NCBI GenBank assembly: GCA_020073365.1
Contig: JAIQFL010000007.1
Span: 1 to 64,000 of the forward strand
DNA from: Terriglobia bacterium
GTDB lineage: Bacteria; Acidobacteriota; Terriglobia; Bryobacterales; Bryobacteraceae
DNA length: 64,000 nt
Direction of reading: 5' to 3'
Positions 50,627 to 61,299 of the stretch are shown piece by piece. The position numbers and the translations under genes are program-made. The notes under the pieces are model-generated. The model was not told where the DNA came from. It worked only from the letters and a program-made list of their open reading frames with translations, and did no database searches. The number at the start of each line of letters is the position of its first letter. The stretch's first letter is position 1.

Positions 50627-51187
50627 ATGTGCCCGCACGGCAACCTGGAAGGACTGATGGCCGGCTATCAACGGGGCGATCCCGACTCCGCCGCGGCTCT
50701 GATCGAGTACGTGAGCCCGATGCTGCACCGGTATTTCATGGTCCAGGTGGTCAGCCGCCGCTACGCCGACGATCTGCTGCAGGAGACCTGGCTGCGGATC
50801 CACGAAGGCCGGCATACCTATCGGCCCGGCGCACCGCTGCTTCCCTGGCTGTACGCCATTGCGCGGCACGTCCGCGTGGATCAGTACCGGAAGGTGCGCC
50901 GCGTAGAAACGCGGGAACAACAGGTGGAGGCCATGCCGGAAGCCTCGGCCGAATCCTTTGCCGGGCCGGGACAGGGACCGGACCTGCAGGCCATCCTGGC
51001 TACCCTGCCGGAGAGCCAGCGCGAAGTGGTCGTCATGTTGAAGGTTTCCGGCATGTCGCTGGAGGAGGTCGCGCGCGCTACTTCATCGAGTGTCGGATCG
51101 GTCAAACAGAAGGCCCATCGCGCTTATGACAAATTGCGGGAACTGCTGCAGGGGTTCAGCAAGCCGAGTGCCGGGAGGGCGACATGA
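50627..51187 (+). CDS. ECF RNA polymerase sigma factor
   Basis: 186 residues from ATG 50627 (MCPHGNLEGLMAGYQRGDPD); the TTG start at 50606 adds 7 residues. Region 2: IEYVSPMLHRYFMVQVVSRRYADDLLQETWLRIHEGRHTY followed by PWLYAIARHVRVDQYRK. Region 4: LPESQREVVVMLKVSGMSLEEVARATSSSVGSVKQKAHRAYDKL. Overlaps the NrsF-like gene by ATGA, so the pair is translationally coupled. Confidence 0.9.
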   Translation: MCPHGNLEGLMAGYQRGDPDSAAALIEYVSPMLHRYFMVQVVSRRYADDLLQETWLRIHEGRHTYRPGAPLLPWLYAIARHVRVDQYRKVRRVETREQQVEAMPEASAESFAGPGQGPDLQAILATLPESQREVVVMLKVSGMSLEEVARATSSSVGSVKQKAHRAYDKLRELLQGFSKPSAGRAT

Positions 51188-51876
51188 CTGAGAAAGAGCT
51201 GGACGCCATCCTCAAACAGGCGGCGGCCGAGCCGCATGAAGTGGACCGGGCGGTGGTCGAACGCGTATCCGGTATCGTGCTGCCCTCGCTCCAGCCTGTT
51301 CGTCCGTTGCCGCCGGTGTGGGTCATCGCTGTGGTCCTCCAATTGATCTTCGTGGCAGTGGCCATATTGGGGGCTACCCTCCGGGGCCTCAACGGCATTC
51401 GCGTGCTGAACAGCGCACAGAGTTCGCTGATCTTCTGGGTGTTGGGTTCGCTCGGGCTCATGGCAGCCTCGGCCAGCGCTGCCGGTATGGCGCCGGGAAG
51501 CAAGAGCTGGTTCGACGCGCGTATTCTGTTGGCAACCTGTACCGCAGCGTTCGTCGCCGTGTTTGCAGTAATGTTTCACGACTACCGGATGGATCGCTTC
51601 CTGACGGAAGGCATCGCCTGCCTGGGAATCGGGTTGCTCCATGCTGTCGCGGCGGGGCTTCTCCTCTGGCTCGTGTTGCGCCGGGGGATGATTCTCAATC
51701 CGATGTCCGTGGGAGTGGCCGCGGGTACCCTGGCGGGGTTGGCTGGGTTTGGAATGCTGGAATTGCACTGCCCCATTCTGAAGGCGATGCACCTGATGGT
51801 CTGGCACATCGCCGTCATTCCGTTGAGCGGGCTGGCGGGATACCTGGTGGGCCGGTTGGTCAGGACTTGGGAGTGA
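51184..51876 (+). CDS. NrsF/DUF1109-like anti-sigma membrane protein
   Basis: 230 residues with six membrane helices ([110 protein letters not shown]). A short N-terminal tail [17 protein letters not shown] faces the cytoplasm as in NrsF proteins; [16 protein letters not shown] matches the conserved HCP block of this family. NrsF proteins hold an ECF sigma factor at the membrane. The stimulus is unknown. The end overlaps convergent msrB by 17 bases. Confidence 0.85.
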
Positions 51877-52447: not shown

Positions 52448-52781
52448 CGATACTTCCCTCCCGAGACCCACGAGATGGCGGGGCCGCTGGGGCCCGGTTC
52501 CGCCCGGACCAACGGGCAGATGGACGCGCTTCCCCCATCATAGCGCGGGTGTCGAGCGCCACCATCCCGAAGCCTCTGCGAACCTCTGCGATCGGTATGA
52601 ATCCCCGCAGGCGAGCGTTTGGCCGATGCCCATCTCCGCGGTTGCCCATGTCCGCGGTGGGACTGCGGTCCCTTCGGTCCTTGGAAGGCCACACACACGA
52701 ATGCGGCGCCATTCAGATGGCGCCGCATATCGGCATCGCAGTGCTACAGTGTGAACCGCCTTCCCGGAGTCATCGCAGGAG
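52448..52781. other. Gap with terminator hairpin
   Basis: 334 bases between msrB and the first paralog gene. It holds the ATGCGGCGCCAT hairpin (52701-52728). No gene seen. Confidence 0.5.
52701..52728 (-). terminator. Hairpin at the end of paralog 1, loop of 4 bases
   Basis: ATGCGGCGCCAT, TCAG, ATGGCGCCGCAT: perfect 12-pair arms. It lies 54 bases past the stop of paralog 1 without a long T tract. The corresponding hairpin for paralog 2 carries a 36-base insertion in its loop (53668-53727). Confidence 0.6.
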
Positions 52782-53213
52782 CTATTCACCCTTGTCGTGC
52801 TGCATCACGACCACTGCGGCGCGGGTAGGCTCGTCCCGGCCCAGTTTGGGACGTGGGAACGCGTAGGCCGGTCTGTCGGGCCCGGTCCAGAGTTCCGTCA
52901 GGGCGCAGGGGGCAGTACCGCATTCGAAGTTCAACACCGCCTTGCCGGCCGCCTCCCACGCTTTATTCGGATCGTGCGGCGCCGTTCCCACCAACAGGAT
53001 CGACCGCCCCGCCTCCGCGCTCCTGATCTGGAAGAACGGAACCCCACTCTGTTGGATGTTGATTTTCACCTGATACGTTCCCGGCTGCATCACCACGCCA
53101 GCAGCGCGAAACGTGAACGGGATCTCCGCCTTCAGTATCTGTGCCGAAGCACTGCCAGCCGCGACCACTAGGGTGGCCGCCGCGATCATCATTCTCGTCG
53201 TGAAATTCGTCAT
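52782..53213 (-). CDS. Secreted protein, paralog 1 of a tandem pair
   Basis: 143 residues. MTNFTTRMMIAAATLVVAAGSASAQILKAEIPFTF is a signal peptide with mature chain after ASA. FRAAGVVMQPGTYQVKI, FFQIRSAEAGRSILLVGTA and APCALTELWTGPDRPAYAFPRPKLGRDE follow; a paired Cys (ECGTAPC). Similar to secreted acidobacterial proteins of unknown role. About 55-60% identical to paralog 2, whose 5' region is duplicated with it. Upstream lies a sigma-54 type promoter (53266-53283). Confidence 0.8.
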   Translation of the reverse strand: MTNFTTRMMIAAATLVVAAGSASAQILKAEIPFTFRAAGVVMQPGTYQVKINIQQSGVPFFQIRSAEAGRSILLVGTAPHDPNKAWEAAGKAVLNFECGTAPCALTELWTGPDRPAYAFPRPKLGRDEPTRAAVVVMQHDKGE

Positions 53214-53265
53214 TGTCGCACCCTCCGTCGGGCTCGCTTGATCACGTCCCGATTCGCATGGATAG

Positions 53266-53283
53266 AAAGCATCTGGCGGGCCA
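53266..53283 (-). promoter_or_regulatory. Sigma-54-type promoter of paralog 1
   Basis: TGGCCCGCCAGATGCTTT on the minus strand. GG and GC are 10 bases apart, the hallmark of -24/-12 sigma-54 promoters (TGGCACG-N4-TTGC), with mismatches only at two secondary positions. The GC is 56 bases from the start codon. The same 18 bases stand before paralog 2, in a region with other substitutions. Confidence 0.65.
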
Positions 53284-53388
53284 TCGCTCTTGGATCCGTG
53301 CCGAGATGCCGCCGCGATTCGTAAATCTATGAAAATCCATGTAACCGCATTTACGTTTCGCCGTATTCAACCGCCTTTCAGCGGTTTT

Positions 53389-53429
53389 GTGAACCCAATG
53401 GTTCACCGGCGTGAACCACCTGGTTCACC
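53389..53429. promoter_or_regulatory. Cluster of four GGTTCAC half-sites, upstream of paralog 1
   Basis: GTGAACC, CAAT, GGTTCAC, CGGC, GTGAACC, ACCT, GGTTCAC: alternating inverted half-sites 10-11 bases apart. It is about 110-150 bases upstream of the sigma-54-type promoter, the usual distance for an enhancer-binding activator. The same cluster stands at 54411. Confidence 0.6.
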
Positions 53430-53667
53430 AGCCTCCCGCGGAGCATGCTCAGCGGGGCCACCGCATAGCATTGCATGGAAGGAAGGACGCGAGGCATGAG
53501 CAAGCGCGGGAGGCTCGGGGCGGAGGGTCGCGTCTCCAGGCGTTCCGAGAAAGAGCCGGCGGCTACCCTGCCAGCCGGGCGACCACATTTGGAAAACGGA
53601 GTACTTACGGAGGACTTGGAGCGGATCGGGTTTAGGCGGCTGGAGTCAGCAGCGGCCACACACACGA

Positions 53668-53727
53668 ATGCGGCGCCATCCAAAGCTGGGACAGGCCTCC
53701 TGGCGTGTCCAGCGGATGGCGCCGCAT
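53668..53727 (-). terminator. Paralog 2 hairpin with a palindrome inserted in its loop
   Basis: Arms ATGCGGCGCCAT and ATGGCGCCGCAT are identical to those of paralog 1, but the loop is 36 bases instead of 4. It contains GCTGGGACAGGCC, TCCT, GGCGTGTCCAGC, a GGGACAGG palindrome of the same type as the dispersed family. So the element appears to have entered an older hairpin. Confidence 0.6.
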
Positions 53728-53803
53728 GTTGGCATCGCAGTTGCGAACCGCCTCTTCTGGCTCGTTCGACGCGCTGGTGCTTTCCTGGTGCTGATTCCTG
53801 GTT

Positions 53804-54232
53804 CTAGTCGCCCTTGTCGGGCCGCATCACGACCAACGCTGTGCGGGTTGGCTCATCTCGACCGGCTTTGGGGCGTGGGAACGTGTAGGCAGGCATTGCA
53901 TTACCGGTCCAGATTCCCGCCAGCGCGCAGTGGCTATCCGCGCACTCGAAGGACAATACCGGATTGCCACTCGCCGTCCACGCCTTATCCGGGTCGCGGG
54001 AAGCCCCTGACAGCAATATGACCGATCGATGGTCGTTCGCACTCCACAGCCGGAACATCGGGCGGCCGGTCAGTTTGTCGACGTTCACGCGATACGTTCC
54101 CGCTTGCATCACCACGCCACTAGCGCGAAATGTGAAGGGGATCTCCGCCTTCAGTGTCTGTGCCGAAGCACCGCCAGCCGCGACCACCAGGGTGGCCGCC
54201 GCGATCATCACTCTCGTCGTCAAGTTCGTCAT
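53804..54232 (-). CDS. Secreted protein, paralog 2 of a tandem pair
   Basis: 142 residues from ATG 54232; the ORF extends to 54361 but without a ribosome site there. Signal peptide MTNLTTRVMIAAATLVVAAGGASAQ, then TLKAEIPFTFRASGVVMQAGTYRVNV, MFRLWSANDHRSVILLSGAS, and a Cys pair (ECADSHC), ending FPRPKAGRDEPTRTALVVMRPDKGD. Paralog 1 shares the frame, length and ends. The activator gene starts 257 bases away in the opposite direction. Confidence 0.8.
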   Translation of the reverse strand: MTNLTTRVMIAAATLVVAAGGASAQTLKAEIPFTFRASGVVMQAGTYRVNVDKLTGRPMFRLWSANDHRSVILLSGASRDPDKAWTASGNPVLSFECADSHCALAGIWTGNAMPAYTFPRPKAGRDEPTRTALVVMRPDKGD

Positions 54233-54287
54233 TGTCGCACCCTCTGTCGGGCTCGCTTCGTTCACGTTCCCGATTCGCATGGATAGA

Positions 54288-54305
54288 AAGCATCTGGCGG
54301 GCCAC
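54288..54305 (-). promoter_or_regulatory. Sigma-54-type promoter of paralog 2
   Basis: Same TGGCCCGCCAGATGCTTT as upstream of paralog 1, at the same distance (56 bases) from the start codon, in spite of substitutions in the surrounding sequence. Confidence 0.65.
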
Positions 54306-54410
54306 AGGGTCTGGAGCGGTACCCAACCGCCGCCGCGATTCGTAAATCTATGAAAATTCATGTAACCGGTATTTACGTTTCGCCGTATGCGACCGCTTTT
54401 CAGCGGTTTT

Positions 54411-54451
54411 GTGAACCCAACGGTTCACCGGCGTGAACCATCCGGTTCACC
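54411..54451. promoter_or_regulatory. Cluster of four GGTTCAC half-sites, upstream of paralog 2
   Basis: GTGAACC, CAAC, GGTTCAC, CGGC, GTGAACC, ATCC, GGTTCAC. It lies upstream of paralog 2 and also just upstream of the divergent sigma-54 activator gene (54489), so it could serve autoregulation as well. Confidence 0.6.
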
Positions 54452-54488
54452 AGGGCTCTTGCGGGGCTTGCTACACTGCCTACCGGAT

Positions 54489-56216
<1,728 letters not shown>

Positions 56217-58284: not shown

Positions 58285-59264
58285 CCGACGGAACACGCCA
58301 GATGCTCCATCACTACCGCCGGGAGATCTCGCTGGTCATCGCGATTCTGGCGATCGCCGCCGTTCTGGCCGTGGTCGCGCCAGGCTTTTTCACCTTCGGC
58401 AATCAGCGTGACCTGGTGATGGCCAACATGCCGGTGCTCATCGTCGCGGTGGGTATGACCCTGGTCATCCTCACCGGGCAGATCGACATTTCGGTCGGTT
58501 CCCTGTTTGCCATTTGCAGCGTGGCTGCCGGCGTCTTCGCGAAGATGGGGCTGCCGACGCCTATAGCCGGTCTGGCCGCTTGCCTGGTGGGCGCCCTCTT
58601 CGGCGCTTTGAACGGCGTTCTGGTGGCCTATGTCCGGATTCCGTCGATCGTGGTAACTCTGGCCGTGATGGTGGCGCTGCGCGACGGTCTCCGCTGGGTG
58701 ACCCAGGGCGCCTGGGTGCAGGATCTGCCGCCGGCGTTCCAGTGGTTCGGAGCGTCGCAAGCCTCAAGCGAGCGGATCACTATCGGGTGCGCGATCCTGC
58801 TGCTGATTTCGGCCGCCTGGGGACTGCGGAACCTGGCCGGCGGCCGAGCCGTGTACGCCACCGGATCGAACCAGACTGCCGCACGCCTGGCGGGTATCGA
58901 TCCGAGACGCGTGATCTTCTCCGTTTTTACGCTTACCGGCGTCCTCACAGGATTGTCGGCCCTGTTCAATTCCGTCCGCTTCAATCAGATTCCGAGCAAT
59001 GCGGGCGTGGGGATGGAGATGCAGGTGATTGCCGCGGTCATCGTGGGGGGCACCTCGGTCTCAGGTGGCCGGGGCACGGTCGCCGGCACACTGCTGGGCG
59101 TCATTCTACTGGGCATCATCGGACCCGGTTTGACCTTTCTGGGAATCAGCGCCTACTGGGAGCTCGCCATCCAGGGCGGGGTCATTCTGGCGGCGGTGGC
59201 GATGGATGCCGCCGGCGTCCATTCGGGGAAATATGCAGGCAACCTTGCCGCTGAGCGAGCGTAG
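58281..59264 (+). CDS. Sugar ABC transporter permease (RbsC-like)
   Basis: 327 residues, about ten membrane helices. The conserved loop GQIDISVGSLFAICSVAAG and AVIVGGTSVSGGRGTVAGTLLG are both present. The ATG overlaps the stop of the ATPase gene. With the second permease it makes an asymmetric pair as in the rhamnose and autoinducer-2 transporters (RhaPQ, LsrCD). Confidence 0.9.
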   Translation: MTDGTRQMLHHYRREISLVIAILAIAAVLAVVAPGFFTFGNQRDLVMANMPVLIVAVGMTLVILTGQIDISVGSLFAICSVAAGVFAKMGLPTPIAGLAACLVGALFGALNGVLVAYVRIPSIVVTLAVMVALRDGLRWVTQGAWVQDLPPAFQWFGASQASSERITIGCAILLLISAAWGLRNLAGGRAVYATGSNQTAARLAGIDPRRVIFSVFTLTGVLTGLSALFNSVRFNQIPSNAGVGMEMQVIAAVIVGGTSVSGGRGTVAGTLLGVILLGIIGPGLTFLGISAYWELAIQGGVILAAVAMDAAGVHSGKYAGNLAAERA

Positions 59265-61299
59265 ATCCTGGCGGGAGCGCTGGTTTCCCAACAGCGAGTG
59301 GGTGCTCCTGCTGGCCCTGGCGGTGGAGACGGCCGCCTTCTCCGTGCTCGGCGAGAACTTCTTCTCCTGGGGCAATTTCTTCGAAGTCATCCGGCTCAGC
59401 GTGGAGCTGGGGCTGCTGGCCCTGGCGCTGACGCCTGTCGTGATCACCGGAGGAATCGACTTGTCGGTGGGCTCCATGATGGGGCTCGCTGCCGTGGTCT
59501 TCGGCGCGGCCTGGCGCGACTGGGGATTCCCAATCGCGGCAGCCGTTTTCTTGGCGCTCCTCCTGGGCGCGGCGGGCGGAGCGCTGAACGCGGTCCTCAT
59601 AACCCGCCTGAACATCCCGCCGATCATCGTTACGCTCGGGTCCTTTTCGATGTTCCGGGGGATCGCCGAAGGTCTCACCCACGGCGCCGTCAATTACAGC
59701 GGTTTCCCAAGCTCGTTTTTGGGGCTCGGCCAAGGCTATCTGTGGGGAGTGGTTCCGGTGCAGTTCCCCATTTTCGTGCTGGTGTTCATGGGGTACGCCG
59801 TTCTGCTGCACCGTTCGGCGATCGGCCGTACTCTGTACGTAATCGGCTTCAACGCCGCGGGCGCCCGCTATGCCGGTATCCGCGTGGAGCGCCGCACCGC
59901 GCTGGCCTATCTTCTCTCCGGCCTGGTCTCGAGCGTGGCCGCGATCATCTACGTGGCCCATCTGGGGCAGGCCAAGTCCAATGCGGGAACGGGCTACGAG
60001 CTCGCGGCGATCACCGCCGTGGTTCTCGGGGGAACGTCCGTATTCGGAGGCCGGGGAACGGTCTGGGGTACGCTGTTTGGTCTGTTCTCCATATCGGTCC
60101 TGCAGAATGGCCTGCGCCTGGCCGCGCTGCCCTCGGAGTTGACCGGCGTGCTCACCGGCACAGTCCTGATCCTGACCATCGCCATCAGCCGCCTTCGAAC
60201 CGGCTGGCAAAATCCGCGGCCCACCGCCCATGCCACAACCACCATCGAGGAAGAACCTCCCATGAGGAACACCCAACTTACCGTGCTCTGCGCCGTAGTT
60301 CTCGCCGGCTCCCTGATCGTTGCCGGGACCAACATCTGGCTGGTCCGTTCGCTTCGTCCCGCCGGCTCGGTGACAGGGGCGCCTGCCGCCGGCGGTCAAC
60401 GTCCGGTGATCGCCGTGATGCCCAAAGCCAAGGGCGACCCGTATTTCGTGAGCTGCCGCGCCGGCGCCGAAGAGGCCGCCCGCGAGACCGGCGTGGAGCT
60501 GATCTGGGACGGCCCCACGGGCCTCGACCCGGCCAAACAGAACGAAGTGGTGGAGGGCTGGATCACCCGCCACGTGGACGCCATTGCGGTCAGCGTGGAG
60601 AATCAGGCCGGCATTTCGACGGTGCTGCGCAAAGCCCGCGAACGCGGCATTCGCGTCTTGACATGGGACGCCGACGCTGCCCCGGACGCGCGCGATTTCT
60701 TCATCAACCAGGCCACCCCGGAGGGAATCGGGAACACCCTGACGGATGAAGCCGCGCGGCTGCTGGGCTCGAAGGGCGAGTTTGTGATCGTCACGGGCGC
60801 GCTGAGCGCGGCCAACCAGAACCTATGGATCGAGGCCATCAAGAAGCGGCTGGCCAAGTATCCGGAGATGAAACTGGTGACCATCCGGCCCAGCGACGAC
60901 GACCGCGACAAGGCTTTTTCGGAGACGCAGACGGTGCTCAAGGTTTACCCCGCGGTTCGGCTGATCATGGCCATCTCGGCGCCGGCGCTTCCCGGCTCGG
61001 GGGAAGCCGTGAAGCAATCCGGCCGTCAGGACGTGGACGTGATCGGGCTCTCGCTTCCGAATCTGAACAAGCGTTATGTGCACGACGGCAACGTGCAGGC
61101 TGTGGTTCTGTGGAACACGCGGGACCTCGGCTACCTGACGGTGTATACGGCGGCGATGTTGGCGCGGAATCGTATTTCCTCAGGAGCCACCACTTTCCAG
61201 GCCGGCCGCCTGGGGACCATCGAGATCCGCGGCGACCAGGTAATTTTGGGCAATCCGATCATCTTCAACAAGGCGAATATCGACCAGTTCGACTTCTGA
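59233..61299 (+). CDS. ABC permease fused to a RhaS/LsrB-like binding protein
   Basis: 688 residues from ATG 59233 (GGGGAAAT before it), overlapping the first permease gene by 32 bases. Residues 1-330: permease with GGIDLSVGSMMGLAAV and TAVVLGGTSVFGGRGTVWGTLFG. Next, without stop codon, the linker ATTTIEEEPP, then MRNTQLTVLCAVVLAGSLIVAGTNIWLV (membrane helix) and a periplasmic binding domain: VIAVMPKAKGDPYFVSCRAGAEEAA, VDAIAVSVENQAGISTVLRKA, GIRVLTWDADA, AVVLWNTRDLGYLTVY. An ATG at 60262 after GAGGAAGAACCTCCC could also give a separate binding protein. The ligand class suggested by similarity is rhamnose or AI-2. Confidence 0.85.
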   Translation: MQATLPLSERRSWRERWFPNSEWVLLLALAVETAAFSVLGENFFSWGNFFEVIRLSVELGLLALALTPVVITGGIDLSVGSMMGLAAVVFGAAWRDWGFPIAAAVFLALLLGAAGGALNAVLITRLNIPPIIVTLGSFSMFRGIAEGLTHGAVNYSGFPSSFLGLGQGYLWGVVPVQFPIFVLVFMGYAVLLHRSAIGRTLYVIGFNAAGARYAGIRVERRTALAYLLSGLVSSVAAIIYVAHLGQAKSNAGTGYELAAITAVVLGGTSVFGGRGTVWGTLFGLFSISVLQNGLRLAALPSELTGVLTGTVLILTIAISRLRTGWQNPRPTAHATTTIEEEPPMRNTQLTVLCAVVLAGSLIVAGTNIWLVRSLRPAGSVTGAPAAGGQRPVIAVMPKAKGDPYFVSCRAGAEEAARETGVELIWDGPTGLDPAKQNEVVEGWITRHVDAIAVSVENQAGISTVLRKARERGIRVLTWDADAAPDARDFFINQATPEGIGNTLTDEAARLLGSKGEFVIVTGALSAANQNLWIEAIKKRLAKYPEMKLVTIRPSDDDRDKAFSETQTVLKVYPAVRLIMAISAPALPGSGEAVKQSGRQDVDVIGLSLPNLNKRYVHDGNVQAVVLWNTRDLGYLTVYTAAMLARNRISSGATTFQAGRLGTIEIRGDQVILGNPIIFNKANIDQFDF

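Follow-up and report, generated by a model that had tools for sequence, protein, structure and literature searches.

A predicted sigma-54 enhancer module for two duplicated exported proteins in Bryobacteraceae, with enhancer-promoter distances in steps of about 11 bp

Our computational analysis of a 64,000-nucleotide stretch of DNA (hereafter the window) suggests, with a probability of roughly 0.88, that it holds a dedicated sigma-54 enhancer module composed of an enhancer-binding protein (EBP), tandem dyads, a site for an IHF/HU-type bend, promoters of the TGGC-N8-TGC type, and two exported proteins, whose genes are here called cargo1 and cargo2. In the mechanism that we propose, the EBP (54489-56213) would be made from its own sigma-70-type promoter, and its dimers would bind the two tandem dyads GTGAACC-N4-GGTTCAC found upstream of each cargo gene. 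Once a ligand had relieved the N-terminal GAF-like sensor, the EBP would assemble its AAA+ ring and contact RNA polymerase-sigma54 at TGGC-N8-TGC by means of a DNA loop bent at the IHF/HU-type site, and this contact would switch on the two small, duplicated, and presumably exported proteins. A self-contained sigma-54 unit had in fact been proposed in an earlier note on this DNA, and the proposal is supported by the -24/-12 boxes, the locus-specific dyads, the GAFTGA-bearing activator, the presence of rpoN, and a phased conservation in 13 further genera. We consider such a unit very likely, and the control of both paralogs by one activator is also very likely. The elements of the predicted module are the following:

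52785-53213, minus strand: cargo1, 143 aa, with a Sec-type signal peptide probably cut between ASA and Q; mature part predicted all-beta, with C-x4-C
53807-54232, minus strand: cargo2, 142-aa paralog, predicted to be exported, 64% identical to cargo1
53266-53283, minus strand: sigma-54-type -24/-12 promoter of cargo1 (putative), TGGCCCGCCAGATGCT
54287-54304, minus strand: sigma-54-type -24/-12 promoter of cargo2 (putative), identical to the cargo1 box
53322-53334, minus strand: IHF-like site of cargo1, TTTCATAGATTTA, with 2 mismatches to WATCAANNNNTTR
54343-54355, minus strand: IHF-like site of cargo2, TTTCATAGATTTA
53389-53428, no strand assigned: candidate enhancer of cargo1, a pair of tandem dyads GTGAACC-N4-GGTTCAC at a distance of 22 bp
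54411-54450, no strand assigned: candidate enhancer of cargo2, a tandem pair of dyads located between this gene and the divergent EBP gene
54469-54477, plus strand: extended -10-like element of the EBP gene, TGcTACACT (TGnTAnACT in orthologs), 11 bp before the ATG
54489-56213, plus strand: predicted sigma-54 EBP, with FHA (residues ~1-95), GAF-like (~104-240), AAA+ with GAFTGA (266-516) and Fis-type HTH (~534-563) domains

Boxes, dyads and the duplicated genes

The 18-mer TGGCCCGCCAGATGCTTT occurs exactly twice, both times on the minus strand, while 0.13 matches at three or fewer mismatches would be expected by chance. The earlier note was correct in describing it as identical in the two copies, but not in placing it 56 bases upstream, as the distances from the end of the box to the starts at 53213 and 54232 are 52 and 54 bases, respectively. 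This identity is weak evidence by itself, because cargo1 and cargo2, together with their upstream DNA, form one tandem duplication of ~1 kb. A loose sigma-54 consensus scan of the whole window, moreover, returned 30 matches against 28 expected, which is not above chance, and the box therefore needs its context to be interpreted. When the test was restricted by position, a box as good as this one was found by chance in ~0.0014 of resampled promoter regions. The window box, TGGCCCGCCAGATGCT, carries GG-N10-GC within TGGCACG-N4-TTGCW and departs from the long consensus at two positions; the boxes of relatives match up to 7 of its 8 optional positions.

The strongest element of the locus, absent from the earlier note, is represented by the tandem dyads at 53389-53428 and 54411-54450. 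Exact copies of TGAACC-N4-GGTTCA number five in the 12.1 Mb genome and four of these lie at this locus, the fifth being inside the coding frame of an ORF similar to those of TonB-type receptors (named by eye). With up to one mismatch allowed, the genome has 30 such dyads, this locus included, compared to 15 for a reversed control. The enhancers of cargo1 and cargo2 differ at three positions, all within the N4 spacers, and the half-sites are unchanged. In the window, 122-123 bp separate the start of the proximal dyad from that of the -24 box, a distance within the ~80-200 bp used as a criterion for activator sites, and the dyads are likely to be the binding sites of the divergently encoded activator. 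Between dyads and promoter lies the IHF-like site, which in the window has 2 mismatches to WATCAANNNNTTR, and in many relatives has 0-1, at phased positions.

Identity between the two copies changes markedly from block to block, being 93% in the dyads, 90% from the dyads to the IHF-like site, 60% in the 25 bp before the box, 100% in the box, 93% in both the leader and the signal-peptide DNA, 72% in the DNA coding for the mature part, and 61% beyond the dyads. This pattern of drift favours a function for the box and the dyads. The statement that the flanking sequence differs thus holds for the 25 bp upstream of the box but fails for the leader and signal-peptide DNA downstream, where the 93% identity is due to both copies lying within the tandem duplication. 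Across 52785-53265 and 53807-54286, leader and signal-peptide DNA are far closer between the paralogs than the mature part is, with dS values of ~0.11 for the signal peptide and ~0.52 for the mature part; homogenisation by gene conversion, or selection that maintains the 5' portion, may account for this.

Both cargo proteins begin with a signal-peptide-like stretch that ends in ASA-Q, and it is from this N-terminus that we infer their export. No family in a Pfam/NCBIfam search fits them, and comparison of a cargo profile with PDB sequences gave nothing significant. An AlphaFold2 model (pLDDT 76.5) is all-beta and found no match among PDB folds at E<0.001. Homologues conserve the C-x4-C motif, one Trp, and A-[ED]-[IV]-P at the start of the mature part. 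GC-rich hairpins with common arm sequence ATGCGGCGCCAT follow both genes:

53668-53727, minus strand: hairpin 3' of cargo2, 14-bp perfect arms ATGCGGCGCCATCC/GGATGGCGCCGCAT, without a T-run; a possible terminator
52701-52729, minus strand: equivalent hairpin 3' of cargo1, 12-bp perfect arms ATGCGGCGCCAT/ATGGCGCCGCAT, without a T-run

Conservation and spacing among relatives

The host assembly comprises 12.1 Mb in 705 contigs, with a contamination estimate of 6%. It encodes one rpoN (Sigma54_DBD, E 2e-58) and eight matches to the HU/IHF family, in which IHF and HU are not told apart. Its relatives in one named collection are Bryobacterales/Solibacteraceae metagenome-assembled genomes, many of them from peat and palsa soil. 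Of 151 relatives, 40 have a cargo homologue at E<=0.001, and a profile search found homologues in 107 of the 237 genomes of the family at E<=1e-10; 76 regions were retrieved from relatives for comparison. In many relatives a divergent EBP ortholog adjoins one or two cargo genes, and upstream of the cargo lie a TGGC-N8-TGC box and dyads, often with an intervening IHF-like WTTCAANNNNTTR. Of 31 cargo promoters, 21 had GG-N10-GC with at least five of eight further consensus positions at -95 to -44, where resampled sequence would lead one to expect 0.43. Genome G054, for instance, has TGGCAGGAGGTTTGCT, G021 has TGGCACGCCGGATGCA and G078 has TGGCAGGGCAGTTGCA. The sigma-54 promoter claimed in the earlier note is supported by these data, as TGGC-N8-TGC, and with it GG-N10-GC, is kept at a distance of ~70 bp from the cargo homologues of 13 other genera, with dyads further upstream.

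A composite dyad and promoter pattern had 12 matches in 151 genomes and one in the reversed control; at least 8 of the 12 lie directly upstream of located cargo genes. The pattern did not match the window itself, where the gap is just above the limit that we had set. The matches in G049 and G087:C98 look like coding DNA. At L085 300-440 (genome G006) dyads and a TGGC-N8-TGC box stand by a deacetylase-like gene (named by eye), with no recognised cargo. Five cargo homologues form a tandem array at L152 3385-6258 (genome G198, genus g43); four of them have a good TGGCA-type box, and a weak dyad lies exactly 89 bp away. Three members of the cargo family (L052, L104 and L161) have neither box nor dyads, and sigma-54 control is therefore not universal in the family. 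Nor is a one-to-one pairing of cargo and EBP general, as genomes G050 and G063 both include contigs that carry cargo loci but on which we saw no EBP. The host genome itself contains a distant homologue (L070) with an EBP next door, where such dyads were not found. Genus g5 has dyads of the form TTAACC-N4-GGTTAA, and its EBP has the recognition helix NSLLRMIR instead of NSLRRLIR, a lead, from one lineage only, that EBP and dyads might have evolved together.

In 43 promoters from 14 genera, the distance between the start of the proximal dyad and the start of the -24 box was 57, 67-69, 78-80, 89-90, 101, 112-113 or 122-123 bp, i.e. seven classes in steps of ~11 bp, with one out-of-phase outlier of 71 bp (L163). 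A Rayleigh test with one value per genus and class, uniform spacing as the null, and the period maximised between 9.5 and 12.5, gave R = 0.952 at a period of 10.95 bp (p<=5e-5, genus level, n=20). With the distinct classes as data, p was 2e-5 without the outlier and 0.006 with the outlier as a class of its own; all these p-values are approximate, as the genera are related. The IHF-like site precedes the -24 box by 18, 28-29, 40 or 51 bp, and follows the dyad by 39, 49-51, 61-62 or 72 bp. The control distances, from dyad to ATG and from box to ATG, showed no phasing (p 0.54 and 0.72, respectively). Such a series of spacings looks like that of a looping sigma-54 enhancer.

The activator and the alternatives to the model

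The AAA+ domain of the EBP is readily recognised (Sigma54_activat, E 2.4e-72) and has the GAFTGA motif, and HTH_8 was found in 10 of 12 homologues. Of the earlier description of this protein as an FHA-GAF activator with GAFTGA, the FHA, the AAA+ domain and the motif all stand, but Pfam does not recognise a GAF domain in the window protein. GAF_2 was identified by Pfam in 6 of the 12 homologues, and in the model of the window protein helices and strands follow one another in a GAF-like order, which would be compatible with a reduced GAF-like domain being the sensor left in this activator. As for the expression of the EBP gene, TGnTAnACT is found shortly before the ATG and directly after the distal dyad in 11 of 13 upstream regions compared by eye; the -35 position abuts the distal dyad, and in g5 (L072) the dyad almost touches the -10-like element. 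Judging from this arrangement, the dyad-bound EBP probably limits its own synthesis.

A different input had been suggested in the earlier note, namely that the FHA domain reads a signal from a Ser/Thr kinase and both exported proteins are thereby turned on. The N-terminus is a true FHA domain by Pfam (2.5e-10) and by fold, with OdhI and GarA as the closest structures (TM-score to target ~0.85), and it retains Gly-Arg at the site. FHA domains, however, contact the phosphopeptide through Arg, Ser and Asn (PMC4037201), and the Ser and Asn of this phosphothreonine site, unlike the fold, are not shared with GarA/OdhI: VSRRH and LNGT of OdhI are AAWDH and GAGT in the window EBP. Two of the three contacts are in fact replaced in all nine aligned FHA-bearing orthologs, where the Ser of SxxH is Ala or Asp and the Asn of NGT is Ala, Val, Gln, Asp or Glu, while a distant EBP in the same genome (L070) keeps both residues. 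Furthermore, the EBPs of three genera (G054, G077 and G063) start past the FHA domain, yet dyads, promoter and cargo are kept. Because of these replacements and losses, a kinase input through the FHA domain is unlikely.

Alternatively, the dyads could be operators of another protein, a repressor, with the EBP acting on something else. Binding of the EBP to the dyads is our own reading, and the dyads also adjoin the -10 of the EBP gene; nevertheless, they accompany the divergent EBP in genus after genus, they are in helical phase with the -24 box, and their sequence differs in the lineage where the recognition helix has changed, all of which makes a separate repressor very unlikely. Least probable of all, in our opinion, is that the identity of GG-N10-GC reflects mere hitch-hiking of the box in the ~1 kb tandem duplication, the cargo genes being transcribed from a sigma-70 promoter. 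Although the duplication is evident, and loose sigma-54 matches in the window are at chance level, the box has been kept at about -70 in 13 other genera, with phased dyads and amid changing surroundings, and, between the two copies, drift has brought identity in the 25 bp before the box down to 60%, while box and dyad half-sites are unchanged.

Known systems and neighbouring genes

The sigma-54 enhancer module proposed here resembles in its plan the NorR-norVW system of E. coli, where an EBP with GAF, AAA+ and HTH domains acts with three tandem enhancers and IHF on a single target (PMC4601167). Common to both would be a single EBP that acts from enhancer sites in tandem, probably with the help of an IHF-type bend, on the -24/-12 promoter of a dedicated target, whereas the extra degenerate FHA, the dyad GTGAACC-N4-GGTTCAC and the duplicated, presumably exported target are found only in the module described here; the likeness does not imply that the EBP is NorR. 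The module also resembles the LuxO-qrr system of Vibrio, in which the activator sites are likewise in tandem and the loop lengths of different species fall into groups ~11 bp apart (PMC4740811). In qrr enhancers, loops of ~80-120 bp are displaced by ~11 bp, and 10-11 bp indels are predicted to be tolerated (PMC4740811). That system spans one genus and its product is a small RNA (PMC4740811), whereas the present series has seven classes (57-123 bp) in many genera of another phylum, and the IHF-like site is itself phased. Given the Vibrio precedent, the phasing reported here represents a second, phylogenetically distant and wider instance, and not a new principle. A predicted exported target is also compatible with the frequent connection of sigma-54 targets to the exterior of the bacterium described by Francke et al. 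(2011, PMC3162934), in a survey whose theme is the transport and biosynthesis of envelope components and in whose accessible text Acidobacteria and Solibacter are unmentioned. Our literature search returned no paper that deals with enhancer-binding proteins of the sigma-54 type in either Acidobacteria or Solibacter.

On balance, we lean towards viewing these loci of uncultured Acidobacteria as a natural phasing experiment, in which enhancer, bend site and -24 box would have been shifted nearly only by whole 11.0-bp turns over a six-turn span, the FHA domain would have lost phosphothreonine reading and been discarded in some genera, and a shrunken GAF would be the sensor controlling a new exported all-beta family. 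With the module, the Bryobacteraceae, soil Acidobacteria known here mostly through metagenome assemblies, would gain a small and defined regulon that comprises an activator, an operator, a promoter and a target. From the series of spacings one would obtain, independently of the Vibrio data, an evolutionary measure of the helical repeat in a looping enhancer (~11 bp), together with a forecast of the insertions that should be tolerated. That a conserved activator has apparently lost its FHA chemistry, in turn, advises caution in equating an FHA annotation with a kinase signal.

Other genes of the window are also worth recording. At 50645-51876 (plus strand), ~1 kb from the module, a gene for an ECF-type sigma factor is followed by one for an NrsF-like anti-sigma factor. 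At 59206-61299 (plus strand), a single frame fuses an ABC sugar permease domain (BPD_transp_2, residues 58-324) to a periplasmic sugar-binding domain (Peripla_BP_4, residues 402-655), two functions usually encoded by separate genes, and immediately 5' of this frame lie an ATPase gene and a second permease gene.
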